Assembly: GCA_001784175.1 (NCBI GenBank)
Contig: MFPR01000027.1
Location: forward strand, 45,167 to 93,214
DNA length: 48,048 nt
Reading direction: 5' to 3'
DNA from: Candidatus Lindowbacteria bacterium RIFCSPLOWO2_12_FULL_62_27
Lineage (GTDB): Bacteria; Lindowbacteria; 2-12-FULL-62-27
The position numbers were made by a program, and so were the translations under genes. Below are positions 26,909-47,770 of the stretch, in pieces. The notes under the pieces were generated by a model. The model did not search any database. It had not been told where the DNA came from and saw nothing but the letters and a program-made list of their open reading frames with translations. The first letter of the stretch is position 1; each line of letters begins with the position of its first letter.

Positions 26909-27505
26909 TTACCCCATACCTTTTATCCCAGGCCCAAACCGGCGGCGGTTTTCAATGACTTTCCTGCCGGCGGCCGTTGTGCGGTATCGCTGGAGGCGGC
27001 TGTTGGGTTTGTCGGGGATCGTGTATTCGATCAGACCGGTTTGCAACGCGGGCTGAAGATATTTTTCAATGAAGTGCATCTTATCCACAAGCTCCACGAT
27101 TGCCTGAAGTTCTTCCCGCGATTTTTCCTTCACAGCAGCCTTGAGAAGTTTTCCGACTGTAGGGGTGACTGTAGGGGCGACTGTAGGGGCGACTTGCGGG
27201 GTCTTCTTCGTCTCCGCTTTCCGGAATCGTACAACAAACGATGTGCCTCGCTCCTCAAACTCCGGGCCGGGAATGCCCGCCTCCCGACAAAGCCTGACGA
27301 TCTTCATCGTGCCCTGGCCAAACCTCTCGATGAGGCCGACGTAGAAGAAGGCCGTCGCGATCAGTTTGTTCCGAGGAAGGGATTCATGAGTGCGTTTCAG
27401 GTCGCGGATCGAAAGTCCCGGATGCAGTCGCCCGGGATTCCAGATTTCGAGCGCATGGTCAAAAATCCGGAGCATCACGTTCCCCGTGGACGTGTATGGG
27501 GGCAA
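26909..27505 (-). pseudogene. Truncated AlbA/RecG-like ATP-binding protein (C-terminal part)
   Basis: About 198 residues match the C-terminal half of the AlbA_2-type regulator found at 20810-22168: LEIWNPGRLHPG, then IATAFFYVGLIERFGQGTMKI, then a winged-helix tail. The AlbA_2 domain and the HRDY-type ATP motif that should lie upstream are missing. The frame is closed by a TGA at 27515-27517, directly beside the start of the oppositely oriented TOTE helicase gene. No good start codon is present (TTG at 27505). It sits just before hsdM and may be a remnant cut when the TOTE gene pair arrived. A short expressed protein remains possible. Confidence 0.7.
27155..27202. repeat. 12-bp tandem repeat, four units
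   Basis: The unit GACTGTAGGGGC occurs at 27155, 27167 and 27179, the first with a terminal T, and a degenerate fourth unit follows at 27191. On the minus strand it encodes the (A/T)PTV peptide repeat in the linker of the truncated AlbA-family protein. Unit number can change without a frameshift. Confidence 0.85.
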
Positions 27506-27521
27506 GGTGGTTATTCAAACG

Positions 27522-29951
27522 ATGATTGACAGTGACACATTGACCGCCCAGCGCGTCATTGATTTTATGCTGGAGATGGATCAGGAATTGGAACAGGCTC
27601 GACTTGAAATCGAAAAACTGAGAAATGAGAACGTAGAACTTCGGAAGATGCTGGAATTGCCGGCCACCGAATCACAACCCCATCTTGAAATGGGCATTCG
27701 CGAAGTCGTGCTCGATTCCAAGCCATTGCCCTCAATGACAAAAGATTCGCCCACAAAAGAAAAAATCGCGTTGTTCCGGATGCTCTTCAGAGGCAGGGAC
27801 GATGTATATGCGCTCCGTTGGGAGAATGAGCGAACAGGCAAGAGAGGTTATTCCCCGGTGCGCGAGGGAGGGGCGGTCGGGAAAGCGGCGAAATCCAAAA
27901 AATATTTGCCGTTGACGGATCAAGCCGTCCAGTACCATTTGTCGGGTGAGAAGACGATTGGCGTCTATCCGCTGCTCTTGGACAATACCTGCTGGTTTCT
28001 TGCGTGTGATTTTGACAAAGAGGGGTGGACGCTGGACGCACTCGCGTATCTGAATGTTTGCAATCGATATGGACTGCCTGCCTATCTGGAGCGTTCCCGG
28101 TCGGGCAATGGCGGCCATGTGTGGACCTTTTTCTCGTCACCCGTTTCAGCGACTTCGGCCAGGCAGTTGGGTATGAGATTGCTTCGGGAAACAATGGTTG
28201 TGCGCGGCGAGATGGACCTTGCCAGTTACGATCGATTTTTCCCGAATCAGGATTTTGTCCCCAAAGGCGGGTTTGGAAATCTCATCGCCCTGCCGCTCCA
28301 GAAAAAATGCCGGCGGCTTGGGAACACGGAATTCGTAAACCCCCACGATGCTGACCTCCGGCCATGGTCGGACCAGTGGGGATTTCTCAGCCAAGTCAAA
28401 AGGCTGTCCTCCGTTCATGTTGATGCCCTGCTTGAAAAAATTCCGCCGATCTCCGTCGGATTGGGATCCACGGCCAAGGTTTCCGCTGAATTGTCTCGAA
28501 AATATCCTGCTCCGCCCAAGATTCGCTGCACGTTTGCCAGTGCATTCAGTATCGAAAAATCCGGCGTCCCACCTTGGCTTCTCTCACAGATCAAGCATCT
28601 CGCGTCACTTCATAATCCTGAATTCTACCGGCGCCAGAAATTGAGACTGGAGACATATCGGACGCCAAGATTTGTCAAATGCTACGGCGAAGACATGAGT
28701 CACCTTCACCTGCCGCGCGGGGCGCTGGATGATCTGCAAGGGATATTCGCCGAAGCCAATTCGGAGATGGACATCATCGATCGCCGCCCCAGATTTGAAA
28801 AATTGGATATGCACTTCCAAGGATCGCTCAGACCTGAGCAGGAGAAAGCTCTGCATGCCGCCTTGTCACACGATATGGGCGTTCTGATTGCGCCGCCGGG
28901 AGCGGGCAAGACGGTCATGGGATGCTTTGCCGTTGCAACGCGGAGCGTGCCGACGCTGATATTGGCCCACCGAAAGCCCATCCTCGATCAATGGCGGACA
29001 CATTTGATGGAACACTTGGGACTGAAATCGAAGGAAATCGGGCAGATCGGCGGAGGCAGAAAGCGATTGAGCCGGCTTGTGGATCTGGCGATGATCCAGA
29101 GTCTCGAACGGATGGAGGATATGGAGGATTTATTTTCTCAATACGGATTCATTGTCGTCGACGAATGCCAGCACATCCCGGCTTATACATTTGAAAGATG
29201 CGTCAAGAAGGCCGCAGCGCGCTACATCCTCGGCCTCACAGCGACACCCCACCGCCGTGACGGATTGCAAGGGATAATCGAGATGCAGTGCGGTCCGATC
29301 CGCTACCGGATGCCGGCGGCGAAAAACGGCATGACCGTTCATTTGATCGAGAGGTCGACAAAATTTTCATACCCCTCGGCCGATCTCTCGGCTCCGGCCA
29401 TACAGGACATTTTTGGCGCTCTGGTCAAAGACGATCTCCGAAATGCGTTGATCATGGAAGATGTCCGGCAGGCGCTGTCACAGAAGGGGCATTGCCTGAT
29501 TCTGACTCACAGAAAAGAACATTGCCGAATACTTGCGGAGGGGCTGGCCGGATCCGGCGCAAATCCATTTGTGCTGACCGGCGATTTGGGCAAGAAAGAA
29601 CGGACGGCCATCATCAAGGCGATTCAGAATTTGCCTGTCGATGGAGAATTCATCATCGTTGCCACAGCCCAGTACCTCGGCGAGGGATTCGACTGCCCGC
29701 AGGTCGACACCCTCTTCCTGGCATTCCCCATTTCGTTCAAGAGCAATCTGGTTCAATACGTCGGAAGATCACTGCGAACCTGTGAGGGCAAAGAGAGCGT
29801 CCAGATTTATGACTATGTGGACACCGAAGTGCCGGTGCTCAAGAGAATGTCCGCCAAGCGCGTCAAGGCTTATAAATCTCTCGGGATTGGCGTAGATGAC
29901 GACGAGGTATCTTCGCGAGAATACACTTTGCCCATGCCGGCGGGGCGCTGA
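27522..29951 (+). CDS. TOTE-type primase-helicase (AEP primase domain plus SF2 helicase)
   Basis: This is an 809-residue protein. Residues 1-48 form a coiled coil. A primase-polymerase domain of the archaeo-eukaryotic type follows (about 80-300), beginning KIALFRMLFRGRDDVYALRW, with a catalytic Asp163-x-Asp165 pair in CDFDKE and SGNGGHVWTFF (His199). An SF2 helicase forms the rest: Walker A APPGAGKT (Lys463), DECQH (547-551), and a late GRSLR arginine-finger region. This combination is the TOTE conflict-system architecture, linked to defence or selfish elements. The ATG at 27522 is preceded by AAGGTGG at long spacing. It appears co-transcribed with the SEC-C gene one base downstream. Confidence 0.82.
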   Translation: MIDSDTLTAQRVIDFMLEMDQELEQARLEIEKLRNENVELRKMLELPATESQPHLEMGIREVVLDSKPLPSMTKDSPTKEKIALFRMLFRGRDDVYALRWENERTGKRGYSPVREGGAVGKAAKSKKYLPLTDQAVQYHLSGEKTIGVYPLLLDNTCWFLACDFDKEGWTLDALAYLNVCNRYGLPAYLERSRSGNGGHVWTFFSSPVSATSARQLGMRLLRETMVVRGEMDLASYDRFFPNQDFVPKGGFGNLIALPLQKKCRRLGNTEFVNPHDADLRPWSDQWGFLSQVKRLSSVHVDALLEKIPPISVGLGSTAKVSAELSRKYPAPPKIRCTFASAFSIEKSGVPPWLLSQIKHLASLHNPEFYRRQKLRLETYRTPRFVKCYGEDMSHLHLPRGALDDLQGIFAEANSEMDIIDRRPRFEKLDMHFQGSLRPEQEKALHAALSHDMGVLIAPPGAGKTVMGCFAVATRSVPTLILAHRKPILDQWRTHLMEHLGLKSKEIGQIGGGRKRLSRLVDLAMIQSLERMEDMEDLFSQYGFIVVDECQHIPAYTFERCVKKAAARYILGLTATPHRRDGLQGIIEMQCGPIRYRMPAAKNGMTVHLIERSTKFSYPSADLSAPAIQDIFGALVKDDLRNALIMEDVRQALSQKGHCLILTHRKEHCRILAEGLAGSGANPFVLTGDLGKKERTAIIKAIQNLPVDGEFIIVATAQYLGEGFDCPQVDTLFLAFPISFKSNLVQYVGRSLRTCEGKESVQIYDYVDTEVPVLKRMSAKRVKAYKSLGIGVDDDEVSSREYTLPMPAGR

Positions 29952-29952
29952 A

Positions 29953-31374
29953 ATGAATCCCGGCCGGAATGAAAGATGTCCCTGCGGCAGCGGGAAGAAA
30001 TACAAGAAATGCTGCATTGACAATCCGAAGGCGTCCTGGCGAAAGCCGGCGGCAGAGCCGGTTTCCACTCCTGTCAGAGCCGCAGACAGAGATGATGATG
30101 AATTTGAGGATGAGGAAGACGAAATGGAAACCGGTGAGGATGCGGAGTCGGATGACGAAATGGCAGGCGTTTCACGGGGGACCAAATCCAGGTTCGAGCG
30201 GATTCGATACCCGGAGCCGGACGCATCCCTTCCTAAAATATCTCCGGAGGATGAACGCATCGTCGACCAATGGTGGATCGATTTCAAGCCCGTATACAAA
30301 GGGAGTGACCGCGGTGAAATGACCAAACGCATCGCAGACTTTATGGACGCCCATCCCGGGTTGTTCGTCCATTTGCGATTGGACGATGAGGCTTTGTTTG
30401 AACTTGGGGCCATGTACGGCCGTAAGCAGGAATGGAACATATTTGTGGATTTATTAAATCGCATCAGGCAGGAACACCCTCGCGCATACCTTCGGGCGTT
30501 CGGATACTGCGATTCGTATATCATCGCGCATCTTTTAGCGAGCGGGAGGAACAATGAGATTCCCGAATATTTGAAAAATTTCAAGACCTATCCCGACACG
30601 GATCCGGATGATTTGCGGCGCGTGATCGACATGCTTGCCTTGGCCGATATGACGGAGGTTCTGGGAGACCTGATTGAGGCCGTGGCCATTCCTCTGTGCC
30701 AATCATCGAAAATCATCAACAGCGGATTTGCCTTCCGCTGGGTGATATTCAGGCGGATGATCCCCCGGCTTGATCGGAAATCCTATCCGGAGGATGACGC
30801 GCGGCTCATCGTCGATGAATTGAACGCCCTGCATCCTCCATTTGATTTCGATCCGGGAACATTTCGCCGAACACTTGCCTGCTACGCCGCGCCACCGGAT
30901 TTTCGTGACATCAAACTCATGCGGATGGAAAAACTATTCGAAATTTATATCCATGTCGTCTGCCATTTTTGCGCTTGGCTGCATGAGAAGAGGAGCATGG
31001 GGTGGATTCGCGCGCGATTTCTGGCGGATCGGCTTGAAGAGTACTTGTTGGACATTCCCTCCGGCAAGCGTCCGAAAACCCCGTTTCGTTTTTCAGATGA
31101 ACGGATGGAGCGCCACATCTCCACACACTACAAATGGATCGTCAGCATCCACGGCGTTCCCGCCATGGCATTTCTGCACGCCGTATTTCTGTTTTCAGAA
31201 TATCTTCTGGAGGCCGGGTATCACGACCGGGCGGAGTGTGGCCGGATCCAATCCGAGTGTTTGAATGTCTTGGATCGTTGTAAGAAGGTGTGCGATCCGA
31301 CAGATCCGGCGGCGCGTCTCTATACACATTTCCCGCATCTGGCGGCCGGCTCCCCGCCTGCCGGCGTCAGGTAA
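29953..31374 (+). CDS. SEC-C zinc-motif protein of unknown function
   Basis: This 473-residue protein opens with a SEC-C motif (RCPCGSGKKYKKCC; cysteines at 9, 11, 20 and 21), which binds zinc and often mediates protein or ribosome contact. A very acidic linker follows (DDDEFEDEEDEMETGEDAE), then about 380 residues of mostly helical sequence without a motif I recognise. The ATG lies one base after the primase-helicase stop, so the two are almost certainly translated from one message. The DNA here is more A+T-rich than the lipid A operon, suggesting transfer. Its function is unknown. Confidence 0.8.
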   Translation: MNPGRNERCPCGSGKKYKKCCIDNPKASWRKPAAEPVSTPVRAADRDDDEFEDEEDEMETGEDAESDDEMAGVSRGTKSRFERIRYPEPDASLPKISPEDERIVDQWWIDFKPVYKGSDRGEMTKRIADFMDAHPGLFVHLRLDDEALFELGAMYGRKQEWNIFVDLLNRIRQEHPRAYLRAFGYCDSYIIAHLLASGRNNEIPEYLKNFKTYPDTDPDDLRRVIDMLALADMTEVLGDLIEAVAIPLCQSSKIINSGFAFRWVIFRRMIPRLDRKSYPEDDARLIVDELNALHPPFDFDPGTFRRTLACYAAPPDFRDIKLMRMEKLFEIYIHVVCHFCAWLHEKRSMGWIRARFLADRLEEYLLDIPSGKRPKTPFRFSDERMERHISTHYKWIVSIHGVPAMAFLHAVFLFSEYLLEAGYHDRAECGRIQSECLNVLDRCKKVCDPTDPAARLYTHFPHLAAGSPPAGVR

Positions 31375-31881: not shown

Positions 31882-31955
31882 TGGGCGCACGAGGACTCGA
31901 ACCTCGGACCTCCTGCGTGTGAAGCAGGCGCTCTAACCAGCTGAGCTATGCGCCC
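31882..31955 (-). tRNA. tRNA-Val (anticodon CAC)
   Basis: The minus strand folds into a complete 74-base cloverleaf. The acceptor stem is GGGCGCA/TGCGCCC with discriminator A. The D arm is GCTC-AGCTGGTTA-GAGC, the anticodon arm CCTGC-TTCACAC-GCAGG gives anticodon CAC (reads GUG, valine), and the T arm is CGAGG-TTCGAGT-CCTCG. The 3' CCA is not encoded. It adjoins an integrase gene, a usual setting for element integration. Confidence 0.97.
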
Positions 31956-31991
31956 TCGGCAAAACGCTAAGTCCAAGATTCACAAGTACGC

Positions 31992-32019
31992 ATCATAGTT
32001 TTTGCGGGCGTAAATTCAA
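31992..32019 (-). promoter_or_regulatory. Candidate promoter of tRNA-Val
   Basis: On the minus strand TTGAAT (32019-32014), a 16-base spacer and TATGAT (31997-31992) form a good sigma-70-like promoter about 37 bases before the tRNA. The match is to consensus only. Confidence 0.5.
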
Positions 32020-32047
32020 GGGCGTGTCGAAGACCTCGCGCGGCCTT

Positions 32048-32089
32048 GCCTAAGCGTGGCCTAAGCCGGATTTTCATTTGGCCTAAGCC
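32048..32089. repeat. CCTAAGC direct repeats x3 at the integrase 3' end
   Basis: GCCTAAGC occurs at 32048-32055, 32059-32066 and 32081-32088. The latter two extend to GGCCTAAGCC (32058-32067 and 32080-32089), and the last overlaps the integrase stop codon. Together with the two copies left of the tRNA they surround tRNA-Val. They are candidate integrase or excisionase binding sites. Confidence 0.6.
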
Positions 32090-33294
32090 GCGCGCAGTGC
32101 ATGGAGCTTGGCGGGGATGTTCTGAATGTCCCGAGCGGTAGAGGGCTTCACGTAATATTTGTAGATCGTCGCGGGCGTGTTGCCCGAATGCGTGGCGACG
32201 TCTTTGACGTTCACACCGGCGTCAAGCATCTCGTTGATCATCGTGACGCGCGCCGCGTATGGCGCGGCGTATTCAACGCCGGCCTTTTTCAACACGGCGC
32301 GCCACGTGCGGCGCATTGTTGAGCGACTGAGGGGTTCGGACAGAAACGGACTTTCCACTGCATTTCCAACCTGATCGATGAAGTCTTGACCATTCATGTG
32401 AAAGCCGAGGCGGTTGGCATAATGTTCGATCAGTCCTTTGGCTTCGGCCGGAATGAACGACGGCGACGCCTCGCCGGATTTTCTGTGCGTGGGCGATTTG
32501 TGAACCTCGGGCCGAACCCACAAAAGGCCGGCGGACATGTCGAGATCGTCCCAGCGGATCTTGTTGAATACGGACGGCCGCAGGCCCAGCCAGACGTTCA
32601 TGCCCACCCATACGGCGCGCGGATCGCGCCAAGTCTTTACGACCTCGCAAATTTTTTGCCGTTCGGCCGGTGTCAGGAATTTCCGCATGGCCGGATTCTT
32701 GCGCTCCTGGGGAATCTTCCGGAGCTGTTTGGCCAAGACCTCGTTGCTTCGCGCGTCGATCACGGGATTGAACTTGTACAACCCTCGCGACATGGCCATG
32801 CCGTAGACGACATGCAGGAGCCGCAGACACATTTCTATCGTTCGCTCGCTCTTTCTCGTGCTCCGCATCCACTTGGCAAAATCCACGACCGATACGGCGT
32901 CCGAGAAATGTTTTCGATTGTGCTTGGCGAGATAGTCGATGCACATGCCAAAAAGTGAATAATCGCTGTGATTTGAATACAGGACGGAATATCGGACGCG
33001 GCCAGTCTGTGAGGCTGCTTTACGGACGTCGCCGTGCTTCACGAGTTCGTCAATCATTTTCCCGAACGTGGACACCGGCAGACGCCGGGACTCCAACTTG
33101 CCATCCGTTTCCATCAACTCGGACTTCAGCCGCACCCGCGCGTTCCGGGCCTGCGTAAGCGAGGTGAACCCGGAGCGCCAATATTGTTTGCCGCGCCACT
33201 GGGACACGCATGAAAATTTCGCCGGCGATCCCTTTCGGGCGGCTCTCAGATCAACGTAGACGCCCTCGTATTTCGTTTTCTCCCACTTGTTCAT
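32083..33294 (-). CDS. Tyrosine recombinase / integrase
   Basis: This 403-residue site-specific recombinase has an N-terminal arm-binding part, a core-binding domain (about 75-185) and a catalytic domain. Arg239 in LGLRPSVFNKIRW is the box I arginine, Arg349 in PYAARVTMI the box II arginine, His369 lies in THSGN, and a tyrosine at 378-381 (IYKYY) is the nucleophile. The usual box II histidine is a tyrosine (346). The gene's stop lies 128 bases from the 5' end of tRNA-Val. It is the last gene of a leftward module with an excisionase-like gene seven bases upstream, and would move the small element in and out of the chromosome. Confidence 0.9.
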   Translation of the reverse strand: MNKWEKTKYEGVYVDLRAARKGSPAKFSCVSQWRGKQYWRSGFTSLTQARNARVRLKSELMETDGKLESRRLPVSTFGKMIDELVKHGDVRKAASQTGRVRYSVLYSNHSDYSLFGMCIDYLAKHNRKHFSDAVSVVDFAKWMRSTRKSERTIEMCLRLLHVVYGMAMSRGLYKFNPVIDARSNEVLAKQLRKIPQERKNPAMRKFLTPAERQKICEVVKTWRDPRAVWVGMNVWLGLRPSVFNKIRWDDLDMSAGLLWVRPEVHKSPTHRKSGEASPSFIPAEAKGLIEHYANRLGFHMNGQDFIDQVGNAVESPFLSEPLSRSTMRRTWRAVLKKAGVEYAAPYAARVTMINEMLDAGVNVKDVATHSGNTPATIYKYYVKPSTARDIQNIPAKLHALRAA

Positions 33295-36414: not shown

Positions 36415-37866
36415 TCAGTCAGAATTTTCACGTTGGATTTTCGTGCTCAACGCCAATTTTCGGCCAGCCTCGCAGAGCGCGCGGACGCGCTCCTTTTCAG
36501 CATGTCGGAGATGTGGATTGCCAGATTCAGCCGCGAGAAACTCGATGATGTCGAAATACGTGGCGACGATGGTCGGCAACCCGTGGAGTTCGATAAACGA
36601 GGATCCCGGGATAAAGTGCGCGACCTTGTTTCGGATTTCGTTTTTTAAAATATCGACAGCTTCTTTCTGATCTGCTGTGAGAGTCAGAGTTTGTGAAAAT
36701 ACGTATTGTTTCATCCACCCGTCCTCCTGACATCTTTTGAGCGCGGTATCAAAATTGATCAGCTTGAGCCGGCCCCCACCGTCCGTCTTTGTCACACGCA
36801 TATAGTCAGTACCCTTAATCGCGCAAACAGCAAATCCATATAACGAGCCATGTAACGAGATGCAAACCCATTTCCATGCCCACGGATTTTTCTCGACATC
36901 CATGAGGGAGCGAACAGCCATCTCCAAGTAATCGAGCGCGTTGGATTCCTCCGTGAGTTCCCAATAGGCAGTCTCGACCGTCTCCGAGACTTTGGGTTGA
37001 ATTTCAGGGCGCGAAAACTGAAACAGAATCTTATTTTTTGCTGCATCAAAGACGTAAATTTTTCCGAACGGCGAGGAAGCGATATTTTGCTCAACAAATG
37101 AAGAGAATGCCGGCAGCCAAATATCTTCGGGCAGGACAGGCTGGGATTCGTAAAATGCCAAAAGCTCGATAGGCGCGTCTGTTGTGTATTTCTTTTCGAA
37201 TTTTTTCTGAACCGCCTCCAATGCCGGTTCACCGAACGACCCGGTGGCATCCACACCGAAAAGCGGTCCTTGAAGGTGTTCATACCGAGAAACATTGAGC
37301 CAGTCCACGGTACCTAAGAGGGGGGAATGATTCTTGATGAGAAACAGAGGCGACCTCCGATATTGAGGAAACACGACACGGACATGGTCGTCCGCACGCG
37401 CGAACTCCGCATGTCTGTAAACTTTTTCGTAGTCCTCTCTATATTCTGCAAATCTGTTTGTTCCGGTTATGGATTCAGCAGAAGACAAAAGAAGGTCGAG
37501 GATGGCCGGCACCGCATCCGCCCGACGCCGATAGGCAGCCTCGTCCTGAAAAGAAACATATATCGAACAATGTTGATAACGAGATAAAAAAGATGCATGC
37601 CGATCGTCCGGCAAGCTCTTGAATGCGCCGACAAGCAACTCCCGCAGCCGTGTCGCGTCGCTATCCCGTCTGGCCATGCTCTCGTCGATGATCTCAACAA
37701 GCTCGAAGGCCATGTCCCCGCGCCCATCGGTTGAGCAGAGAATATCCGGTTCCGGTGACTGGCGTTTTTGGATGGAATTCGGAGATACGGCAAGTTTGGC
37801 CGCCACGACAAATTGATTGAATATCGTCAACTCATGGTTTCCCTGTGGGTCGCGACCCTCTTTCAC
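36415..37866 (-). CDS. Putative nuclease-like / HEPN-like protein
   Basis: This protein of about 483 residues has a short restriction-endonuclease-like N terminus (SPEPDILC, then MAFELVEI; Asp and Glu present but the catalytic lysine of the motif is not). A long middle domain is unassigned. The C-terminal helical domain contains WAWKWVCISLHGSLYGFAVCAI and the R-N-x-x-x-H motif RNKVAH (about 412-417) typical of HEPN RNases. The start is uncertain: GTG at 37866 or a TTG at 37902. It follows ygjP-like gene 2 by under 40 bases on the same strand. The family is unknown to me; a defence effector is plausible but unproven. Confidence 0.7.
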   Translation of the reverse strand: MKEGRDPQGNHELTIFNQFVVAAKLAVSPNSIQKRQSPEPDILCSTDGRGDMAFELVEIIDESMARRDSDATRLRELLVGAFKSLPDDRHASFLSRYQHCSIYVSFQDEAAYRRRADAVPAILDLLLSSAESITGTNRFAEYREDYEKVYRHAEFARADDHVRVVFPQYRRSPLFLIKNHSPLLGTVDWLNVSRYEHLQGPLFGVDATGSFGEPALEAVQKKFEKKYTTDAPIELLAFYESQPVLPEDIWLPAFSSFVEQNIASSPFGKIYVFDAAKNKILFQFSRPEIQPKVSETVETAYWELTEESNALDYLEMAVRSLMDVEKNPWAWKWVCISLHGSLYGFAVCAIKGTDYMRVTKTDGGGRLKLINFDTALKRCQEDGWMKQYVFSQTLTLTADQKEAVDILKNEIRNKVAHFIPGSSFIELHGLPTIVATYFDIIEFLAAESGNPHLRHAEKERVRALCEAGRKLALSTKIQRENSD

Positions 37867-37904
37867 GCCACCCGGCCTGCCTTCGGTGTGTGAATCATAC
37901 AACG

Positions 37905-38612
37905 CTAAACCATCAACCCAAACACAAGATAGTCCTTCGCCTTTCGGGCCAAGGCATCCTTACGCTTTTGCCAATCGGGCACGGCACGGCCCAATGCCTT
38001 CCAAAATTCAGGCCCGTGATGGCCTTCCCGCAGGTGAACGAGTTCGTGCAGGATGATGTAGTCCACGAGCCGGACCGGGAGTTGGAGGACTTTCCAGTTG
38101 AAATACAAAATATCGTTCTTGCCGCACGAGCCCCAGCGAAATCCGAGGTCACGAACTTCAATCCGGGGCGGATTGCTTGCGGCACGGCTCGAAAGGCGTT
38201 CGACCCGGCGGCGAATCCAGTCCGTACCCGTCTCCACATACCAGCGCCGGAAATGCTCCTCGGCGGGCCGGGCATCCCGGCGAAGCATGAACCGGTTGCC
38301 ATCGAAGTGAAGCGGACGCTCCTGCTTTTCCACAACCTTGAGTCCGAACCGGCGACCCAGATAACAGAATGCCTCGCCTGAAACGTATTCGGGAGCCTGC
38401 AACTTGGGCACAGCCTCTTCCTTCAACGCCAGCTTGCGATGCACCCAGAGCAACTTCCGATTGGTCCACCGGGCCAGCTCCACAGCATCGGCCTTCGCGG
38501 GAGCATGAACCACCAACTCGCCGCCTCGATCCACGGTCAAACCGAGAGTCTTGCGGCGAACACTTCGGCGCACCTCAAAGACCAACCCGCCGACCTCCAG
38601 CGTCTCGGTCAT
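37905..38612 (-). CDS. YgjP-like (SprT/DUF45) metal-dependent hydrolase, copy 2
   Basis: This 235-residue protein has His189-Glu-x-x-His193 in LHELVHLREGHHG with a third histidine at 198 or 199, and FRWGSC at 158-163, the YgjP/DUF45 signature. Its ATG overlaps the hsdR stop by four bases (ATGA). It shares fold and position with copy 1 but differs over most of its length, so the two loci look independently acquired or anciently split rather than recently duplicated. The substrate is unknown. Confidence 0.88.
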   Translation of the reverse strand: MTETLEVGGLVFEVRRSVRRKTLGLTVDRGGELVVHAPAKADAVELARWTNRKLLWVHRKLALKEEAVPKLQAPEYVSGEAFCYLGRRFGLKVVEKQERPLHFDGNRFMLRRDARPAEEHFRRWYVETGTDWIRRRVERLSSRAASNPPRIEVRDLGFRWGSCGKNDILYFNWKVLQLPVRLVDYIILHELVHLREGHHGPEFWKALGRAVPDWQKRKDALARKAKDYLVFGLMV

Positions 38613-41600
38613 GAGCGGGTCAGGTATTCGTGATTCTCGCGCGCCAAGGCCACGAGGCGTTGCGCAAGATCGCGTTCGCCGCCGGCCCGGCAGATTCCGG
38701 CGCGGTCGATGTCGCGAACCAACGTCCGCGTCAACAGTTCCCGCATGTCGTCATTCTTCCAGAATCCGACCTTGCGTACTTCCTGGCGAACGCGGTCCAC
38801 CATCTCCAGCGTGGCCGAGAGTGCGGTCGTTCGCTGCGCTTCGGTCAGTTCACGCCCTTTGCCGCATTCCTCCAGAACGAGACGGACGAACGGCACTTGC
38901 ACTTTCGGGTCAAGGTCGGGGAATTCGTTGCGGTCGCCGCGCCGCAACTCGTCGATGAACTTTCGGAGCTCCCTCTCCAGCGCATCCCAATCATCTTTAA
39001 ACCGCCGAAGAATTTCCTCCAACTTCTCGCTCATCTTCCGGGCATAGGCCGGATTCTGATTGGTAAAGCCGATGATGTGATAGCGCGCGGCGTGCTGCAT
39101 CTGCGCCGCGCGGGCGCGGCTGTTGGACTGGCCTTGGAGCACTTTCTCAAATTCCGCGTCGGTGATGGCCGTCGGCGGAATCTTCGGGTCAACGCCCCGG
39201 GCGGAGATGTGCGCATAGATGAGCGCCTTCACCTTCTCCGCCACGCCCAGAAGATTGAGCGCGGGGTCGCGATAGAGGTTGGCCGCAACCTTGTTGATGA
39301 ATCCAAGCAACTTGGCGTCTCGGAACACGGACGTCGGTACTTCCGGGCGGTGCTCCAGCAGGCCCAGCATTTCGTAAAACATCCGCAGTTTGTTGATAAA
39401 ATCGGCGCGAATCTTCAGATCTTCGAGCATCTGCACGCACACATCCACTTGGCCCTGCAAATCCGTCACGCCCCGGTCGGTGAACACCGCGACGGCCCGC
39501 GCCCGCCGGTCGAGCAGTTTCGGCAATTCGACGTTGATGTCGATCAATGCGCACTCGATATCCTCGCCGTCGTAATCCTTCAGCGCATCGTTCAAATGGC
39601 GGGCCACGCCGATGTAGTCCACCACGTAACCGCATTTCTTCTGTCCGGAAGTCCGGTTCACCCTGGCGATGGCTTGCAATAGATCGTGCGCGACGACTTT
39701 CCTGTCAAGGTACAGCACCTGCTCCACCGGCGCGTCGAATCCCGTGAGCAGCATGTTCATCACCACGAGAATCGAAAGCGGGTCGGTCTTGTCCGTTTTT
39801 GCCGCGCCGAATTTCCGTTTGAACCGCTTGATCACATCTTCCTGCTTGTCCTTGTCCGACCACTCCCACCATGACTCCGGGTCGTTGTGGTTGCCGGAAA
39901 AAACGGCCGCAATCTCCATCGCGCGCAGTTTGGGCAGTTGCGGATGGGTTTGTACCAGAAAGCGCGTCTTTGCATCGAGCTTGACGAGTTCGTCATCGGA
40001 GAGCGCCAGCGTTGCAGCGGGCACGGCTTCCAGTTCCGCGACCAGTTCATTCCGCGCCTGCGCCAATTTGTCGATATAGGTCATGACCGCCGGGCGGCTG
40101 GTGGCCACGACCTGCGCCTTGAATCCCTCGGGCAACACCACGCCGGCGTAATGCCGGATCATGTCGCGCGCCTTTTGCTCGATGAGCATGGGCGCTTCGA
40201 TCACGTCGCCCTCGGTCGCGTACTTGGCTTTGATGAGCGCCAGTTCGTCGGGGGTGTAATCGCGGAACATGTCCTCAAACACCGCGTCGAGGCTGGGCGC
40301 ATCCTTCACGATGCCGTCCGCCGTCCGGCCCTCGTAGAGAATCGGCACGGTCGCGCCGTCCAGTTCCGCGTCCTGGAGGATGTATTTGTCAATGAAGTCG
40401 CCGAATATCTCGCGGGTCTCCTTCTTTTCACTGCTCAAGATCGGCGTGCCGGTGAATCCGATGACGGCGGCGTTCGGCAGGGCCCGGCGCAGGTTGCGGT
40501 GCAGGGTGCGCGTGTGCGACCGGTGCGCCTCGTCCACCAGCACGAGGATTTCCTCCGAGTCGTTGAGCTGTGGAAACTCCTCGAAGCGGATGTTCTCCGT
40601 GAAGGTGACTTCCTTCCCGACGACCTCTTCGTGCTTGCCCGGTTTCTTTTCCTTGCGGACGATCGTCATCGCCACCTTGTCGTCAGGGCGGCTGCCCGCC
40701 TGCGGCAGAACGGCGAGGCTTTTACCGTCGGTCCTGCCGCCCACCGGTTGATACTTTTGCAGCATCGCCATGACGATGTCCGGCGTGCGCTCGCTCAAGA
40801 GCCGCTGGGTTAACGCCGTCGGCGACTCGCGCGATCTCAAATCCTCGTCCGTCGGCCGCACCGATTCCCCGCTCAACCGCGCCGTCGCGCCAAGCTGGTC
40901 CTGCAAATCCGTGCGGTCGGTCACGACGACAATCTTGAAACGGTTCAGGCGCGGCATCATCCGCATCTTTCGAACGAGGAAGACCATGCTAAGGCTCTTG
41001 CCCGACCCTTGCGTGTGCCAGACGATGCCCCCGCGCTCGTCGCGGTCCGCTCCCCGCGCTTTCGTTCGGCCTTCCTGCAATTTTTTCACCGCCTTATGGA
41101 TGGCGCGGAACTGCTGGTATCGCGCCACCACCTTGCGCGTCTTGCCGTCCACCTGCTGGAACAGCGTAAAGTTGCGGATGAGGTCGAGCAGATGCGCCGG
41201 GCGCAACATGCCGGCGGCGAGAATCTGCTGGCTTTGGAGCGTAGCGCCCTGCCCGCGCAAGGCGGCGGGCCGTTGCTCCGGTTTACGGAAGAAGAGCGGC
41301 GTGCCGACGCGGTCGCCTTGTTCCTGTCCGAGCGTGGCCAGTTCCTGCGCGGCTTCCGTCGTGTCGGCGGACCGGGGCAACACGCCGAGTTCCTCCGCCA
41401 CTGTGCCGAGCGGCACGGGACTGGTATCCGCCCATTCCAGATACGCCTCCGGCGGCGCGCCGACCGTGGCCGCGCGCGCTTCGAAGAGATTGCTGGCGAT
41501 GAGCAATTGGTTCGTGTGAAAGAGCCGCTCGACGCCCTCGTTTTCGGTGTAGAGCGTGGGAAATAATTCCTTGCGCTGATTCGTGTAACGCAGGAGCTGG

Positions 41601-42142
41601 TTGATGGCCTCCTGCAACGGATTTTGGATGCCGGGACTTTTGAATTCCGCCACCGCCACCGGGATGCCGTTCACGAACAGAACCGCGTCCGGAATGACGT
41701 GACCGCGGCCGCTGGTCAACTCCACCTTGAACTGGTTGATGACGAGAAAATCATTGTTGGCCGGGTTCTCGAAATCAATGAACCGCACCGGCTGGTTGCG
41801 CCCGAAATTCCAATCCGGCAGACCGTCAATCTCCGTTCCCTTGAGCAGCATCCGGGTCGCCGACTCGTTGACTTCCATCAGGCGATGGCCCTCGGCCTTC
41901 TCCAGCTTTTCGATGATACGGCGGATGCGGTCATCATCAAGCCACGTCTGGCCGTCTTTGCCCAGATTGAGCTTCCGCAGCGCTGCGGCGAGCCGCCCTT
42001 TGAGCAACACCTCGCGGAAGTTGGCGCGCTCGGTGAATTCCGCCACGTCCGTGTCGCCCTCAATCCACTGCCAGCCCATCGCCTTGAGCTGTTCGCAAAA
42101 AGGGCGCTCGACGAGATCGTATTCCCATTGGACTTTGCTCAT
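38609..42142 (-). CDS. hsdR: Type I restriction enzyme R subunit (HsdR), system 2
   Basis: This 1177-residue restriction subunit has nuclease residues Asp152 (VIPDAVLFVNG) and Glu166-Phe-Lys168, translocase Walker A in HTQGSGKSLSM, DEAH motif (VDEAHRSHT), GFTGTPIL, and an ARVNRTSGQ motif VI region, followed by a helical C terminus. It is longer than, and only distantly similar to, the system 1 protein, indicating a different type I family. It overlaps hsdS upstream and ygjP downstream by four bases each. All key residues are intact. Confidence 0.95.
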   Translation of the reverse strand: MSKVQWEYDLVERPFCEQLKAMGWQWIEGDTDVAEFTERANFREVLLKGRLAAALRKLNLGKDGQTWLDDDRIRRIIEKLEKAEGHRLMEVNESATRMLLKGTEIDGLPDWNFGRNQPVRFIDFENPANNDFLVINQFKVELTSGRGHVIPDAVLFVNGIPVAVAEFKSPGIQNPLQEAINQLLRYTNQRKELFPTLYTENEGVERLFHTNQLLIASNLFEARAATVGAPPEAYLEWADTSPVPLGTVAEELGVLPRSADTTEAAQELATLGQEQGDRVGTPLFFRKPEQRPAALRGQGATLQSQQILAAGMLRPAHLLDLIRNFTLFQQVDGKTRKVVARYQQFRAIHKAVKKLQEGRTKARGADRDERGGIVWHTQGSGKSLSMVFLVRKMRMMPRLNRFKIVVVTDRTDLQDQLGATARLSGESVRPTDEDLRSRESPTALTQRLLSERTPDIVMAMLQKYQPVGGRTDGKSLAVLPQAGSRPDDKVAMTIVRKEKKPGKHEEVVGKEVTFTENIRFEEFPQLNDSEEILVLVDEAHRSHTRTLHRNLRRALPNAAVIGFTGTPILSSEKKETREIFGDFIDKYILQDAELDGATVPILYEGRTADGIVKDAPSLDAVFEDMFRDYTPDELALIKAKYATEGDVIEAPMLIEQKARDMIRHYAGVVLPEGFKAQVVATSRPAVMTYIDKLAQARNELVAELEAVPAATLALSDDELVKLDAKTRFLVQTHPQLPKLRAMEIAAVFSGNHNDPESWWEWSDKDKQEDVIKRFKRKFGAAKTDKTDPLSILVVMNMLLTGFDAPVEQVLYLDRKVVAHDLLQAIARVNRTSGQKKCGYVVDYIGVARHLNDALKDYDGEDIECALIDINVELPKLLDRRARAVAVFTDRGVTDLQGQVDVCVQMLEDLKIRADFINKLRMFYEMLGLLEHRPEVPTSVFRDAKLLGFINKVAANLYRDPALNLLGVAEKVKALIYAHISARGVDPKIPPTAITDAEFEKVLQGQSNSRARAAQMQHAARYHIIGFTNQNPAYARKMSEKLEEILRRFKDDWDALERELRKFIDELRRGDRNEFPDLDPKVQVPFVRLVLEECGKGRELTEAQRTTALSATLEMVDRVRQEVRKVGFWKNDDMRELLTRTLVRDIDRAGICRAGGERDLAQRLVALARENHEYLTRS

Positions 42143-43359
42143 GGCGTGGCTCCGATCGTTTCCGGCACGCGGACGCGGCCGGTGAGCAGGTCGGTCATCA
42201 GGCCGGATTTCAGGTCACGGAGCTTGGAGAATTCGCGCATTGTCGCTACAATCTCACGATCAATTGTATCAAGTGCATCGGAAATCTTCGTTTGCTCGGC
42301 AGGTGGTGGGATTCTCAGCGGAACAAATTCCAGATTGCGTTGTGTGAGCTTGGGTTGAGCTGAGCCAAGCAGCCAAGGGACGTAGTCCTGCGCCTCCAGA
42401 ATTGTGGCCAAGAAACGAACATCTGTGGTTGGTAGTGGCTCAAAAATGTGAGCGTGATTGTTTACCCAGAACTTACCGGAAGCGATAAAGGCCAAAGGTA
42501 ATTGGCGCGAACGTAGATTCTCGCCGTCCTCTCCGATGAGAACGAAATCTCCGTCAAACAGATAGTCATCAATGAAATCAATTACGCCCGACGCGCCGTA
42601 GTATGGATATATACCGTGCCTCGTATCTCGGTCACCCTGCTTTAACGGCACTCGGCGAGCGTCTCGATTGTTAGCCAAGGCTGAAACATTTCTGACGATC
42701 CACTCGCTGGGGATGCGGCCAATGGGGGAGTCTTGGAATTGTTCGGGGTGGGCGATGGGGTCGCGGAGTTGGCCGTTTTGGTCGAGGCCGCGGGTGAGGA
42801 GGTCGTGGAGCAGGCCGGCGCGCACCTGCCGCAGTTTCGCAATCACCGCCTCCGTCTTCGCGATCGCTTCGTCCACCGTGTCCAGCACAGCCGTGATGCG
42901 CCACCGCTCCTCCTTCTCTGGACAGAAAACACTAATGCGCCGAACGTCACTTTCATTGACCGCTGGATAGCTTGACCCTGTTTCGAGGGCGCGAAGCTGT
43001 GTTGCAACTGAGTCACCAAAGATTTGGTGAAAGACAAAACCGGAGTCCCCGGATAAGTTGGGCCGCAAAACGGCGAAGCCTGTCGAACCAACGAGCGGAG
43101 CATCTGCTTCTTGGCGGATTCTTGCATGCGCTTGTAGGCCCGGTCGGACAGTGCAGAGCAAAACGTCTCCCGAACGCAACCGCCTCCGCGCCCGGCTCGG
43201 AGCGTTCGCATATTTCCACAGTTGCGTTGCCGACCAATCAACTTGGCCTTTCGTCACAGCCGAGATGTCGAGATATCGGAACTCCATGTCCATCGGAGTG
43301 GCGGCACCGAGAGCCTCCGGGTTGATGCTACAAAGGGAGTCGAGAGTTTGCGTGCTCAT
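42139..43359 (-). CDS. hsdS: Type I restriction enzyme specificity subunit (HsdS), system 2
   Basis: This 406-residue subunit has two target-recognition domains separated and followed by helical conserved regions (RWRITAVLDTVDEAIAKTEAVIAKL and EQTKISDALDTIDREIVATMREF), ending GLMTDLLTGRVRV. It gives the second system a specificity unrelated to system 1. The ATG at 43359 overlaps the hsdM stop. Confidence 0.93.
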   Translation of the reverse strand: MSTQTLDSLCSINPEALGAATPMDMEFRYLDISAVTKGQVDWSATQLWKYANAPSRARRRLRSGDVLLCTVRPGLQAHARIRQEADAPLVGSTGFAVLRPNLSGDSGFVFHQIFGDSVATQLRALETGSSYPAVNESDVRRISVFCPEKEERWRITAVLDTVDEAIAKTEAVIAKLRQVRAGLLHDLLTRGLDQNGQLRDPIAHPEQFQDSPIGRIPSEWIVRNVSALANNRDARRVPLKQGDRDTRHGIYPYYGASGVIDFIDDYLFDGDFVLIGEDGENLRSRQLPLAFIASGKFWVNNHAHIFEPLPTTDVRFLATILEAQDYVPWLLGSAQPKLTQRNLEFVPLRIPPPAEQTKISDALDTIDREIVATMREFSKLRDLKSGLMTDLLTGRVRVPETIGATP

Positions 43360-45962
43360 GCGTAGCTCAGTTGCTTGAGAAACTCGCTCAGGCTCGTCTC
43401 AACTCCGGTGCGGTCGCCTCGCAGTTGGGCCAGCGTCACCCGATACTTGTCCCACAACCCCTCGATGTATCGAACCAACTCCTGCCGCTTCTCGGCCACG
43501 GCGGCGTCGAGACCGGCTTGCACGTCCTGCTCGAACAGTTCGAGTACGAGCGCGCGCTTCTGATCGCCGTTCAGCGCGGCACAGCGGGACTTGAGTTCGT
43601 TCACGAACTCGTTGGTCAGGGTGCGGTACCGCACGCGAGCTTCGGAGAGCTGTTCCTTGATTTGTTCGTAAGGCGCAAGAGTCTCTGCGTACGCCGCCAG
43701 TTGGTCGAGCACCGGCTGGAGCGCGGCTTTCGCATCGGAGGCGTCGCGCTTGTCCTCGGTCGTGGCGCGGGGCCTGTCGGCGGCGCGTTCCAGTTTGGCG
43801 AGTGTCTTGAGCGCATCCCTGTTTTCAGTTTTGAGTTCGCGCATCTGCCGGTCGATGTCCTTGGCGTAGTTCCAGTCGGCTTGTTCCTCCTCGTCGAGAT
43901 CGTCGGGCGCGTTGCTCTGCTCGAAGGATTCCTTCTCGCCCTTGAGCCGGGCGACGTCGGCCTTGGCGGCGGCGATGCGTTCGAGGTAGTCGCTCATGGT
44001 GCGGCGGACGAGTTTGTGGCCGAAGGGGTCGAAGGCCGGGCCGGCGGCTTCGTCGTCCTCTACCGCATCGGCGATGGCATCCACCCAGCCGTCGATCACA
44101 CCGGGGAATCCGTTTTCGAGCAGGGTCTTGAAGTCGGACAGCGTGTCGGTCCACCAAGTGGCGATGACGCCCGAGAGTTTGAATCGGTCCAGCGTGTTCG
44201 GCGGCAGGAGCGCTTCGACGAAGGTCTCGAGGAACTCGGCGCGGACGCGATTGAGGTCGCGACGACGCGGCAGGTTGGCGAGGCGGGGCGAGTGTTCCGC
44301 CCACCATTCGGCAAGGCGGCGGCGCACCGCCACCAAACACGCCTGAACGCCGGGATCGTTCTCGACCAGCGGGCGAATGGCGGCGCGGTCGGGAAGCGCG
44401 GCGGCGAAGTCGAGATAAGCGGGATCATTCTCGCGCCTGGCGAAGGCGTGGGACGAGTTGAATCCGAGCGCATCAAAGAGCGGGCGCTTGTCCGTCACTT
44501 CGGCCGCGGGCACGCCGCCGAGCAGGTGAGCACGCACGTCGTGCGGCTCGGGCGGCGGCGAGTTGTCCACGTACCGGCGGATGTTGAGATTGAAATCATT
44601 GGCGTCGCCGGCGATTTCAGTGATGGGAACGACGCGGGCATAGCCGGGGATGTCCTGGTAGCGGTCGAAGGTGGAGACGATTTTCTCGATGTGTTCCGGC
44701 CGGAGATAGTTTTGCGCGCGGCCGGCATGAAACTCGGCGTCGGCATTGATGAAAAGCACCCGGCCGCGGCGGTCGGCGGGCTTGTTCGGATTCGGCGCTC
44801 GGCCGGTGAGGTTCGGGCGCATTACGAGAATGCAGGCCGGGATGCCGGCGCCGTAGAACAGATTTTGCGGCAGACCGATCACGGCTTCGATGAGATCCTC
44901 TTCGAGAAACTTTTTCCGGATTTCCTTTTCCGCCCCGCCGCGAAAGAGCACGCCATGGGGCATGACGGTGGCAACCATGCCGCCGTTTTTGCAGACGGCG
45001 AGCATGTGCTGGGCGAACATGAGGTCGCCCTTCTTGCCCGAGGTCGGACACCATCCCCAGCGAAACCGCTCGGGAAATTCCATATTGGTGCGGGTGTAAT
45101 TCTGGCTGAAGGGCGGATTGGCGATGACGCGGTCGAAGCGTTCAAGTTCCCCGGCATCGCGGTGCTGGGGATGGAGCAGAGTATCTTGCAACTGAATGTC
45201 CGCGCCGGGCACGCCGTGCAGAAGCATATTCAACCGGCAGATGGACCATGCGGAGGCGTCGTTGACCTGGCCGCAGAGGCGGAGGTTGGTGGGATCGCCG
45301 CCGGATTGCTCGATGAACTCGCGGCTGATGATGAGCATGCCGCCCGATCCGCAAGTGGGATCATAGACGCTCATGCCCGGCGCGGGCTTGAGGATGCGCA
45401 CCATGAGCCGGATGACGTCGCGCGGCGTATAGAAATCGCCGCCCTTCTTTCCCGCCGACTCGGCGAACATGTTGATGAGAAATTCGTAAGCCGCGCCGAG
45501 CAGGTCGGAAAACTGGAAATCCTCATTACGCAGGCGGTGGCGGGTAAAATGCCGGACGAGGTCCTTGCAGGCGTCATCAGACAGAATGCGCTTGTTGCCC
45601 TGGGTACGCAGGAATTGGATATGATCGAGGACGTGTTCGAGGGATTCATTCGCTTCGCTCAAAGCGCCCAGCGCCTTATCGAGGACGCTGCCGTAAACCA
45701 CGGTGCCGTCGTTGAGTTTGTCCTGGAGGAATTGCCACCTGGCGATCTCGGGAACAAAGAAACCGTCGTAGTAGTCCGGTTTCTCGCGATTACGCTCCGG
45801 AAGTTTCTCCCGATCCGCCTCAAAGACATCGGAGCAACGCTTTAGAAAGAGCATTCCAAAGATGTAATCTTTGTAGGTGGCGGCATCGAGGCCCTCCTGC
45901 CGCAGCCGGTCGGCGGCCGAGTACAGGTGACGTTCGAGTTTAGCAAGAGAAAGACGTGGCAT
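43356..45962 (-). CDS. hsdM: Type I restriction enzyme methylase (HsdM), system 2
   Basis: This 868-residue adenine methyltransferase has an HsdM N domain (LERHLYSAADRLRQEGLDAATYKDY), SAM motif DPTCGSGG (201-208) and NPPF (282-285). The last 350 residues are unusual: a helical domain with long coiled-coil segments, well beyond the normal HsdM length. The ATG at 45962 is chosen because it begins the conserved N domain; an open upstream extension to 46205 overlaps the divergent cyclase-like gene and looks non-coding. It is the first gene of restriction operon 2. Confidence 0.94.
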   Translation of the reverse strand: MPRLSLAKLERHLYSAADRLRQEGLDAATYKDYIFGMLFLKRCSDVFEADREKLPERNREKPDYYDGFFVPEIARWQFLQDKLNDGTVVYGSVLDKALGALSEANESLEHVLDHIQFLRTQGNKRILSDDACKDLVRHFTRHRLRNEDFQFSDLLGAAYEFLINMFAESAGKKGGDFYTPRDVIRLMVRILKPAPGMSVYDPTCGSGGMLIISREFIEQSGGDPTNLRLCGQVNDASAWSICRLNMLLHGVPGADIQLQDTLLHPQHRDAGELERFDRVIANPPFSQNYTRTNMEFPERFRWGWCPTSGKKGDLMFAQHMLAVCKNGGMVATVMPHGVLFRGGAEKEIRKKFLEEDLIEAVIGLPQNLFYGAGIPACILVMRPNLTGRAPNPNKPADRRGRVLFINADAEFHAGRAQNYLRPEHIEKIVSTFDRYQDIPGYARVVPITEIAGDANDFNLNIRRYVDNSPPPEPHDVRAHLLGGVPAAEVTDKRPLFDALGFNSSHAFARRENDPAYLDFAAALPDRAAIRPLVENDPGVQACLVAVRRRLAEWWAEHSPRLANLPRRRDLNRVRAEFLETFVEALLPPNTLDRFKLSGVIATWWTDTLSDFKTLLENGFPGVIDGWVDAIADAVEDDEAAGPAFDPFGHKLVRRTMSDYLERIAAAKADVARLKGEKESFEQSNAPDDLDEEEQADWNYAKDIDRQMRELKTENRDALKTLAKLERAADRPRATTEDKRDASDAKAALQPVLDQLAAYAETLAPYEQIKEQLSEARVRYRTLTNEFVNELKSRCAALNGDQKRALVLELFEQDVQAGLDAAVAEKRQELVRYIEGLWDKYRVTLAQLRGDRTGVETSLSEFLKQLSYA

Positions 45963-46018
45963 GGCAGGAACGATACCTTTTGGTCGGGCAAGAGGGCAAC
46001 GGGATAAATTCTTCTCGC

Positions 46019-46045
46019 TTGAATAAATTCGAGGTTCGATATAAT
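46019..46045 (+). promoter_or_regulatory. Candidate promoter of the cyclase-like/aroD pair
   Basis: TTGAAT (46019-46024), 15 bases and a perfect TATAAT (46040-46045) lie just upstream of the cyclase-like gene. Transcription would begin near 46052, almost at the ATG at 46056, so the message could be leaderless or the real start lies further in. Confidence 0.5.
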
Positions 46046-46055
46046 TTCGTTTGTG

Positions 46056-46937
46056 ATGGTCAAACGAAAAAGAGAAAAGGGCAGAAAAATCAGAATACAG
46101 GAGTATAATTTTCTGTCCATAGACACAGTTTCCTCCACAGAACTTTGTTCCATCGTGGGTACGGCCCAAATCGACGCAGTCGTCCATACCTTTAATATGC
46201 TGCACGATACGTTGCTGTCGGCCATCCGCGGTCGATATGATGAATATCGCTGGTCATTTGATGGCGGACTCTGGAAACGGCGGATTGTTGACGCGCGCAT
46301 CGACGCTGAGAAAACTGTTCAAACCGGGTTTGAAATATTTCAACGAATCAATGCCATCAATAGAAAACACCGGTTGGGCAATGGGCGCGTCATTGCCCTG
46401 CGCGTCGTGGCCCATAAAGGAAAGGTAGTGTTCTCCGGCCCCACATGGGGTACCGCCTTCAGTCCGGCCCTTGGGGCGCTGGCCAAATATGAAAAACAAG
46501 CCGTGAATGGTGAAATATGGCGGTTTCATATCAGCGAAGATATTTACGAAGATTTGCCAAACAAAATCCAAAAAAAGTTTGAACTCGGTGGTGGATCCAT
46601 ATCCGAGATTGGACGAAGCGGCGGAACACGGTTTTACCAGTCTCAGCGGCTATTCGGCGGCCCTGCTCTCCGCGAAGCTCATTTACGCTTTAGGGATGGC
46701 AATCCGAGTCCGATGGGTAAGAAGAAAACAGATTCGATTAATTCAGTGGTCAAAAAGGCAAAATCTCTTATGAAAAAGAATGAGCACAGGAAAGCCTACA
46801 GGATGCTGTTGAAAGCCCATGGAACTGACCGTCTAAACAAATCTTTCTTGACACTGCTGGTCAGCATATGTAAACATCTCGGGTGGATGGCAACAGCAGG
46901 ACAGTATCAACAACTTCTGGGGTCCCGACAAGAATGA
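46056..46937 (+). CDS. Divergent class III nucleotide cyclase-like protein
   Basis: Of about 293 residues, 17-190 follow the class III cyclase homology pattern. A first strand has Asp23 (FLSIDTVSSTEL), and a turn has Asp69 (SFDGGLW) where the second metal-binding Asp should be. A helix follows (AEKTVQTGFEIFQRINAIN), then VIALRVVAHKGKVVFSG, and AALAKYEKQAVNGEI-like lineup near the end of the domain (ALAKYEKQAVNGEIWRFHIS). The C-terminal 80 residues are lysine-rich and helical, TPR-like. Residues for base recognition are not obvious. The gene diverges from restriction operon 2 and its stop overlaps the aroD start (ATGA). Cyclase activity is inferred, not shown. Confidence 0.6.
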   Translation: MVKRKREKGRKIRIQEYNFLSIDTVSSTELCSIVGTAQIDAVVHTFNMLHDTLLSAIRGRYDEYRWSFDGGLWKRRIVDARIDAEKTVQTGFEIFQRINAINRKHRLGNGRVIALRVVAHKGKVVFSGPTWGTAFSPALGALAKYEKQAVNGEIWRFHISEDIYEDLPNKIQKKFELGGGSISEIGRSGGTRFYQSQRLFGGPALREAHLRFRDGNPSPMGKKKTDSINSVVKKAKSLMKKNEHRKAYRMLLKAHGTDRLNKSFLTLLVSICKHLGWMATAGQYQQLLGSRQE

Positions 46938-47770
46938 AAATGAAGAATAGACGCGCAATGGGGGGAATGCCAATACTGCGGCAGCCGAGACCGAGGAAGA
47001 CTGTTCTTATTGGGAGCAAAAAAATCGGTAGCGGCCCCACACGGATCATCTGCGTCGTGGGTGGAAAGTCTGCCCTGAAGGATGCCCTGACGGCCAAGAG
47101 ACAGGGTGCGGACATATTAGAGGCCAGGGTGGATTTGTGGGACAACCCAGGTCAGGCAAAAACCGACCTCCGCGAACTCAGAAAAATGAAAATACTGCCT
47201 ATTATCGCAACGGTCCGGCGCGTCCAAGAGGGCGGATTTTGGCCGGAGAATGAAGAGATAGATAGAAAGAATTTTTTAGGGGAAATTATCGATGAGGAGC
47301 TTGCGGATTGCATCGACATCGAACTCAACGCCACCAAAATCCGTACGGCCATTCTGCAATTGTGCAAGAGGAATGAGATTGCCACGATCGTGTCTTACCA
47401 TGATTTCGTAGGGACGCCGTCTTCGTCCCAACTCTCAAAAATCATTGACCGGATAAACCGAACAGGCGCGGACATTATTAAAGTGGCGGTCATGGCCAAT
47501 AGCCGGGAAGATGTCCATCAAGTCATACGGCTGACGGAAAAATATGCAAAAAAGCTCAGGCCCATGGTGATGATTTCGATGGGCGAGCTGGGTCGACCCA
47601 CGCGCGTCATGGCGGGTCTTTTTGGATCGTCCATGACGTATGGTTATTGCAGTGCCCAACCCATGGCGCCGGGCCAAGTGCCAGTTACTGAATTGAAAAA
47701 AGCTTTGCAAATGTCCCCCAACAATATTTCCGGACAGGTTCGTTTCTCTGATTTAGCCGCGGTTCTCTAA
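46934..47770 (+). CDS. aroD: Type I 3-dehydroquinate dehydratase
   Basis: This 278-residue enzyme dehydrates 3-dehydroquinate to 3-dehydroshikimate in the aromatic amino acid pathway. Active-site residues are Glu63 and Arg65 (EARVDLW), the general base His156 (SYHDF), the Schiff-base Lys183 (DIIKVAVMA) and the arginines in GELGRPTRV. The first 35 residues (Lys/Arg-rich) precede the normal N terminus, so a later start is possible; the ATG at 46934 is favoured by its overlap with the upstream stop. Other shikimate genes are not adjacent. Confidence 0.9.
   Translation: MKMKNRRAMGGMPILRQPRPRKTVLIGSKKIGSGPTRIICVVGGKSALKDALTAKRQGADILEARVDLWDNPGQAKTDLRELRKMKILPIIATVRRVQEGGFWPENEEIDRKNFLGEIIDEELADCIDIELNATKIRTAILQLCKRNEIATIVSYHDFVGTPSSSQLSKIIDRINRTGADIIKVAVMANSREDVHQVIRLTEKYAKKLRPMVMISMGELGRPTRVMAGLFGSSMTYGYCSAQPMAPGQVPVTELKKALQMSPNNISGQVRFSDLAAVL

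Follow-up and report, generated by a model that had tools for sequence, protein, structure and literature searches.

The analyzed window, a 48,048-nucleotide stretch of contig MFPR01000027.1 from Candidatus Lindowbacteria bacterium RIFCSPLOWO2_12_FULL_62_27, contains a gene encoding a class III cyclase-like protein that overlaps a downstream aroD gene and is encoded divergently from a type I restriction operon (Table 1). The divergent arrangement had been proposed in a first-pass annotation and is borne out, with the restriction operon encoding HsdM, HsdS, HsdR and a YgjP-like protein on the far side of an intergenic region of about 93 bp. The same annotation had placed the cyclase-like gene at 46019-46937; the end coincides with the end of the stop codon, but coding begins at the ATG at 46056, or at the GTG one codon further upstream. 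All residue numbers used here count from this ATG. The cyclase-like gene is genuine; each of the other five frames contains between 5 and 19 stops across it, and its codon-position G+C values (0.53/0.41/0.50) are coding-like. A TATAAT sequence is found at 46040-46045, about 10 nt ahead of the start codon, tentatively pointing to a possible leaderless start, while a promoter scan gave no score at this position.

Table 1 Features at the cyclase-like locus (window coordinates).
Feature	Position	Strand	Details
hsdR	38609..42142	-	same operon as divergent hsdM
hsdS	42139..43359	-	same operon as divergent hsdM
hsdM	43356..45962	-	first gene of divergent type I restriction operon
Divergent intergenic region	45963..46055	.	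~93 bp, between hsdM and cyclase-like gene
Class III cyclase-like gene	46056..46937	+	293 aa; ATG 46056, alternative GTG start 46053
Cyclase-like domain, residues ~10-197	46083..46646	+	predicted by AlphaFold2 with alignment; VIA Z 18.8 to CyaB 3r5g
Asp23 codon (YNFLSID)	46122..46124	+	aligned with first metal-binding Asp of class III cyclases
Asp69 codon (YRWSFDGG)	46260..46262	+	candidate second metal-binding Asp; two-residue shift needed; low-confidence loop
Gly140-Lys144 codons	46473..46487	+	aligned with class III catalytic Asn and Arg (Asn to Gly, Arg to Lys)
Helical C-terminal tail, residues ~206-293	46671..46934	+	weakly TPR-like in the no-alignment model
aroD, type I 3-dehydroquinate dehydratase	46934..47770	+	PF01487, TIGR01093; 4-nt overlap with cyclase-like gene

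Defense genes abound in the wider window. A second, separate type I restriction-modification operon is located at 17047-26905 (minus strand) and consists of hsdM, hsdS, a gene for a Schlafen/AlbA_2 plus HATPase protein, hsdR and a YgjP-like peptidase gene; a YgjP-like metallopeptidase gene follows both restriction operons. At 27390-31374 (plus strand), a TOTE-type archaeo-eukaryotic primase-helicase fusion is followed by a 492-aa SEC-C motif protein. A phage integrase gene (31882-33294, minus strand) adjoins tRNA-Val(cac) at its 5' flank, which suggests a genomic island; a repeat of the tRNA-Val end, as would mark a tRNA-based island boundary, was not found in the window. Downstream of hsdR and the YgjP-like gene of the divergent operon, a 495-aa protein without Pfam or PADLOC match is encoded at 36415-37902 (minus strand) by a gene of low G+C (0.505).

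The product of aroD matches PF01487 with an E-value of 1.7e-55 and scores above the TIGR01093 cut-off, and the active-site His, Schiff-base Lys, Arg and Gln are all present when aligned with 3js3 and 3l2i. Coupling to the cyclase-like gene, considered odd in the first-pass annotation, is real, the two genes sharing the four nucleotides ATGA that contain the aroD start codon, and would be odd only for a housekeeping gene. This aroD copy is accessory, since the genome encodes a type II dehydroquinase as well (C43:193064-193474; type I enzyme at C27:92238-92873, window 47072-47707) and two family relatives (81-88% complete) have no type I enzyme. Cyclase-like gene and aroD also share a low G+C content (0.48 and 0.51, with GC3 of 0.50 and 0.58, respectively), unlike hsdM and hsdR (G+C 0.61-0.62, GC3 0.78-0.80), and thus look like one separately acquired pair that stands outside the restriction operon. 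As a guide to possible partner genes, 29 loci with the most similar aroD homologues (up to 39% identity) were inspected, and none has a cyclase-like ORF beside it. A stretch of 278 bp separates aroD from the end of the contig, where the window ends too, and the visible neighbors of the cyclase-like gene are hsdM and aroD.

Searches of Pfam, NCBIfam, PADLOC and PDB sequences returned nothing meaningful for the cyclase-like protein; its class III similarity lies below the reporting limits of Pfam, in which no match was obtained at E-values up to 10. Matches to PHROG 31587 (E 0.011, 44 residues) and to Chlorophyllase (E 0.05) were dismissed as noise. Remote homology could be detected using dedicated profiles. 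A profile of 12 class III domains from the same genome scored the protein at 15.1 bits, rising to 20.5 bits in a variant that included a Ruegeria cyclase found by tblastn, compared with 6.3 and 7.8 bits, respectively, for the best shuffles (n=2,000) and 8.4 bits for the best of about 1,700 unrelated ORFs. A broader profile, which also takes in cyclases from viral contigs, yielded 13.7 bits versus 12.0 bits for the best unrelated ORF, a narrower margin, and the same profile without Ruegeria sequences gave weak support, ending in a tie (11.1 bits versus 11.2 bits for one phage tape-measure-like ORF). Across all four class III profiles, the scores of the protein lie at 11-20 bits. They exceed those of every shuffled copy in the three profiles so tested and, in three of the four, those of all roughly 1,700 unrelated ORFs, with the tie in the fourth. 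HHalign aligns 205 columns co-linearly at a probability of 27%. A tblastn search of 7.3 Gb of plasmids gave four weak matches, one of them to the Ruegeria cyclase, which is aligned in register and whose orthologue was the sole locus confirmed in the second of two scans of 85k genomes. Based on these profile scores and on both structure models described below, residues ~10-197 are a divergent class III nucleotide-cyclase-like domain.

The predicted secondary structure elements follow the strand and helix order of class III cyclases: β1 (10-24), α1 (36-56), β2/β3 (60-76) and α2 (80-104) in the N-terminal half of the domain, and β4/β5 (115-127), α4 (137-149), β6 (157-160) and β7/β8 (175-196) in the C-terminal half. 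A model generated without an alignment is poor (pLDDT 41), and its best three PDB matches are, at low confidence, class III cyclases (E 0.04-0.29) with CyaB ranking first. The AlphaFold2 model of the domain reached a pLDDT of 78.7 and a pTM of 0.80 but was built on an alignment of 19 cyclases and consequently leans towards the class III fold, so that it does not represent independent proof. With this bias, 179 structure matches were found at E-values up to 0.001 with Z-scores of up to 18.8, the best being P. aeruginosa CyaB (3r5g_B, 182 residues, 3.0 Å). Domain order and predicted fold across residues 10-199 are shared with class III cyclases (PF00211) such as CyaB (3r5g), S. platensis CyaC (1wc1) and the Ruegeria protein WP_260066607.1, as are the first metal Asp and a weak yet calibrated profile similarity, while identity in the alignment is only 10-21%.

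Class III cyclase domains followed by TPR repeats are a known architecture, and the protein analyzed here likewise consists of a cyclase-like domain and then a helical tail, albeit one of only about 85 residues. TPR proteins are among the matches that follow the class III cyclases in the no-alignment model, aligning with tail residues 220-293 at Z-scores of 4-6 (pLDDT 41). The TPR-like tail of the first-pass annotation thus persists as a weak structural likeness; Pfam contains no TPR match for this region.

The active site departs from that of canonical class III cyclases in several respects. Asp23 falls in the sole invariant column of the cyclase alignment. The second metal position is taken by Ser67 in a gapless register and by Asp69 only if a two-residue insertion is allowed, the GD motif of class III cyclases being FD here with a two-residue shift, and residues 65-69 have pLDDT values below 50 in the alignment-based model. 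Both aspartates, proposed earlier to occupy the metal positions, are where they were said to be and Asp23 is aligned, but Asp69 is not established as the second ligand. Registers are ambiguous around residues 62-73 and 132-145; in either register, the catalytic-helix residues Asn and Arg are replaced, by Gly140 and Lys144 (the best register) or by Ser136 and Gly140. The earlier observation that base-selecting residues are not recognizable is correct, and the defect extends further to the missing catalytic Asn/Arg pair. As judged from one sequence, the active site appears degenerate. Because the site is incomplete by canonical standards, the protein is filed as containing a class III cyclase-like domain and not as a class III enzyme; the original class III reading holds for remote homology and fold.

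We propose, with moderate confidence, that the gene, which makes up a two-gene unit together with that of an accessory type I dehydroquinase, encodes an acquired, stand-alone, strongly diverged and degenerate class III cyclase-like protein with a short helical TPR-like tail, and that this protein represents a pseudo-cyclase or weak cyclase, not a Pycsar enzyme. A pseudo-cyclase or a weak non-canonical cyclase is suggested by the missing transition-state Asn/Arg and base-selecting residues. Most likely, such a degenerate cyclase-like protein would have a nucleotide-binding or weakly active signaling role. The domain would dimerize and may bind nucleotide with Asp23, at a minimum, as metal ligand, and the signal could then be relayed via contacts of the helical tail. 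If the domain is indeed a pseudo-cyclase, the protein would be an example of class III fold drift to a point where Pfam and NCBIfam profiles no longer detect it.

It is also conceivable, if rather unlikely, that the protein is catalytically active as an unconventional class III cyclase. Two metals would then be coordinated by Asp23 and Asp69, with Arg65 and Lys144 standing in for the usual selecting and transition-state residues, and one of the many cNMP-binding proteins encoded in the genome would read the product. The alignment of Asp23 is consistent with this, as are the resemblance of the DGG at the β2-β3 turn to GDG and the conservative nature of the Arg-to-Lys exchange, yet the catalytic Asn is gone in both registers and Asp69 is two residues off in a loop of very low pLDDT (<50). 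Given 13 matches to class III domains and 30 to cNMP-binding domains in the genome, ordinary cyclic-nucleotide signaling is plentiful in this organism and a reader of the product could be at hand. Unconventional catalytic sets have been predicted in DUF2652 proteins (PMC4886424), which are, like the cyclase-like protein, uncharacterized, cytosolic and remote (<25% identity) from established cyclases. These class III cyclase-like proteins reportedly retain residues for substrate specification and for transition-state or other stabilization (PMC4886424), and the protein analyzed here has no Pfam match to DUF2652.

No close homologue of the cyclase-like protein was found among relatives and phylum genomes, with about 580 genomes queried by protein, nor in the two pattern scans of 85k species genomes, which catch close relatives only. 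Viral contigs, phages and plasmids (the latter two searched by tblastn) likewise yielded no homologue except for the remote Ruegeria cyclase. Two weak 19-bit matches in 386 genomes, confined to the tail, were rejected as chance-level. Distant homologues may exist. The lack of homologues in every collection searched would, along with the degenerate motifs and low G+C, fit a functionless orphan gene that is either decaying or recently formed. We consider this improbable given that the 293-codon frame is intact with coding-like codon-position G+C, the order of the cyclase-like domain is complete, and the gene overlaps an intact aroD by 4 nt.

A signaling role in defense, by analogy with Pycsar, had been suggested in the first-pass annotation, and a Pycsar-like or other nucleotide-signaling defense cyclase with an unlinked or unrecognized effector is, in our assessment, highly improbable. 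Location speaks for it, as the region contains two type I restriction-modification operons, the TOTE-type gene and an integrase. The alignment-based domain model also matches the cUMP synthase BcPycC (7r65) at a Z-score of 17.5, but this is level with many ordinary adenylate and guanylate cyclases. Base-selecting residues are reported as F100/R142/Q144 in EaPycC and F60/K104/F109 in AnPycC (PMC11224242). In the Asp69 register, on which this comparison depends, Arg65 stands at the EaPycC Arg142 position and, like it, precedes the putative second Asp by four residues; it is the only match to the PycC set. Where EaPycC has F100/Q144 and AnPycC has F60/K104/F109, the residues here are Ser21, Ser67 and Leu72. 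The class III-like fold is common to the model and to BcPycC, EaPycC and AnPycC (PMC11224242), whereas the remaining base-selecting residues, the cysteines for a zinc ribbon as found in AnPycC, and an accompanying cNMP-binding effector gene are not. As already noted in the first-pass annotation, no obvious effector is encoded next to the cyclase-like gene, both neighbors being accounted for by hsdM and aroD; a cNMP-binding effector with a transmembrane or TIR domain was likewise not found among those proteins of the window that a Pfam scan covered, the contig ending shortly after aroD, beyond which a further gene may lie. PADLOC defense models gave no matching family for the protein at E-values up to 1, its gene differs in composition from the restriction genes, and no homologues that would reveal a defense association were found in the collections searched. 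Assignment as a Pycsar cyclase is not supported, and a class III-like fold adjoining restriction genes is too little for proposing Pycsar.

Scarcely probable, finally, is a functional pair in which the cyclase-like protein, as a nucleotide sensor or maker, would control the accessory shikimate-type enzyme or use AroD as its effector, possibly as an island-borne defense or stress module, though it would, if true, constitute a new link between cyclic-nucleotide-type signaling and a metabolic enzyme.

Class III cyclases that stand alone, measure about 220-240 aa and retain intact motifs were observed to recur in IMG/VR viral contigs (L019:3178-3900, L053, L031 and L026), several of them scoring identically across contigs.
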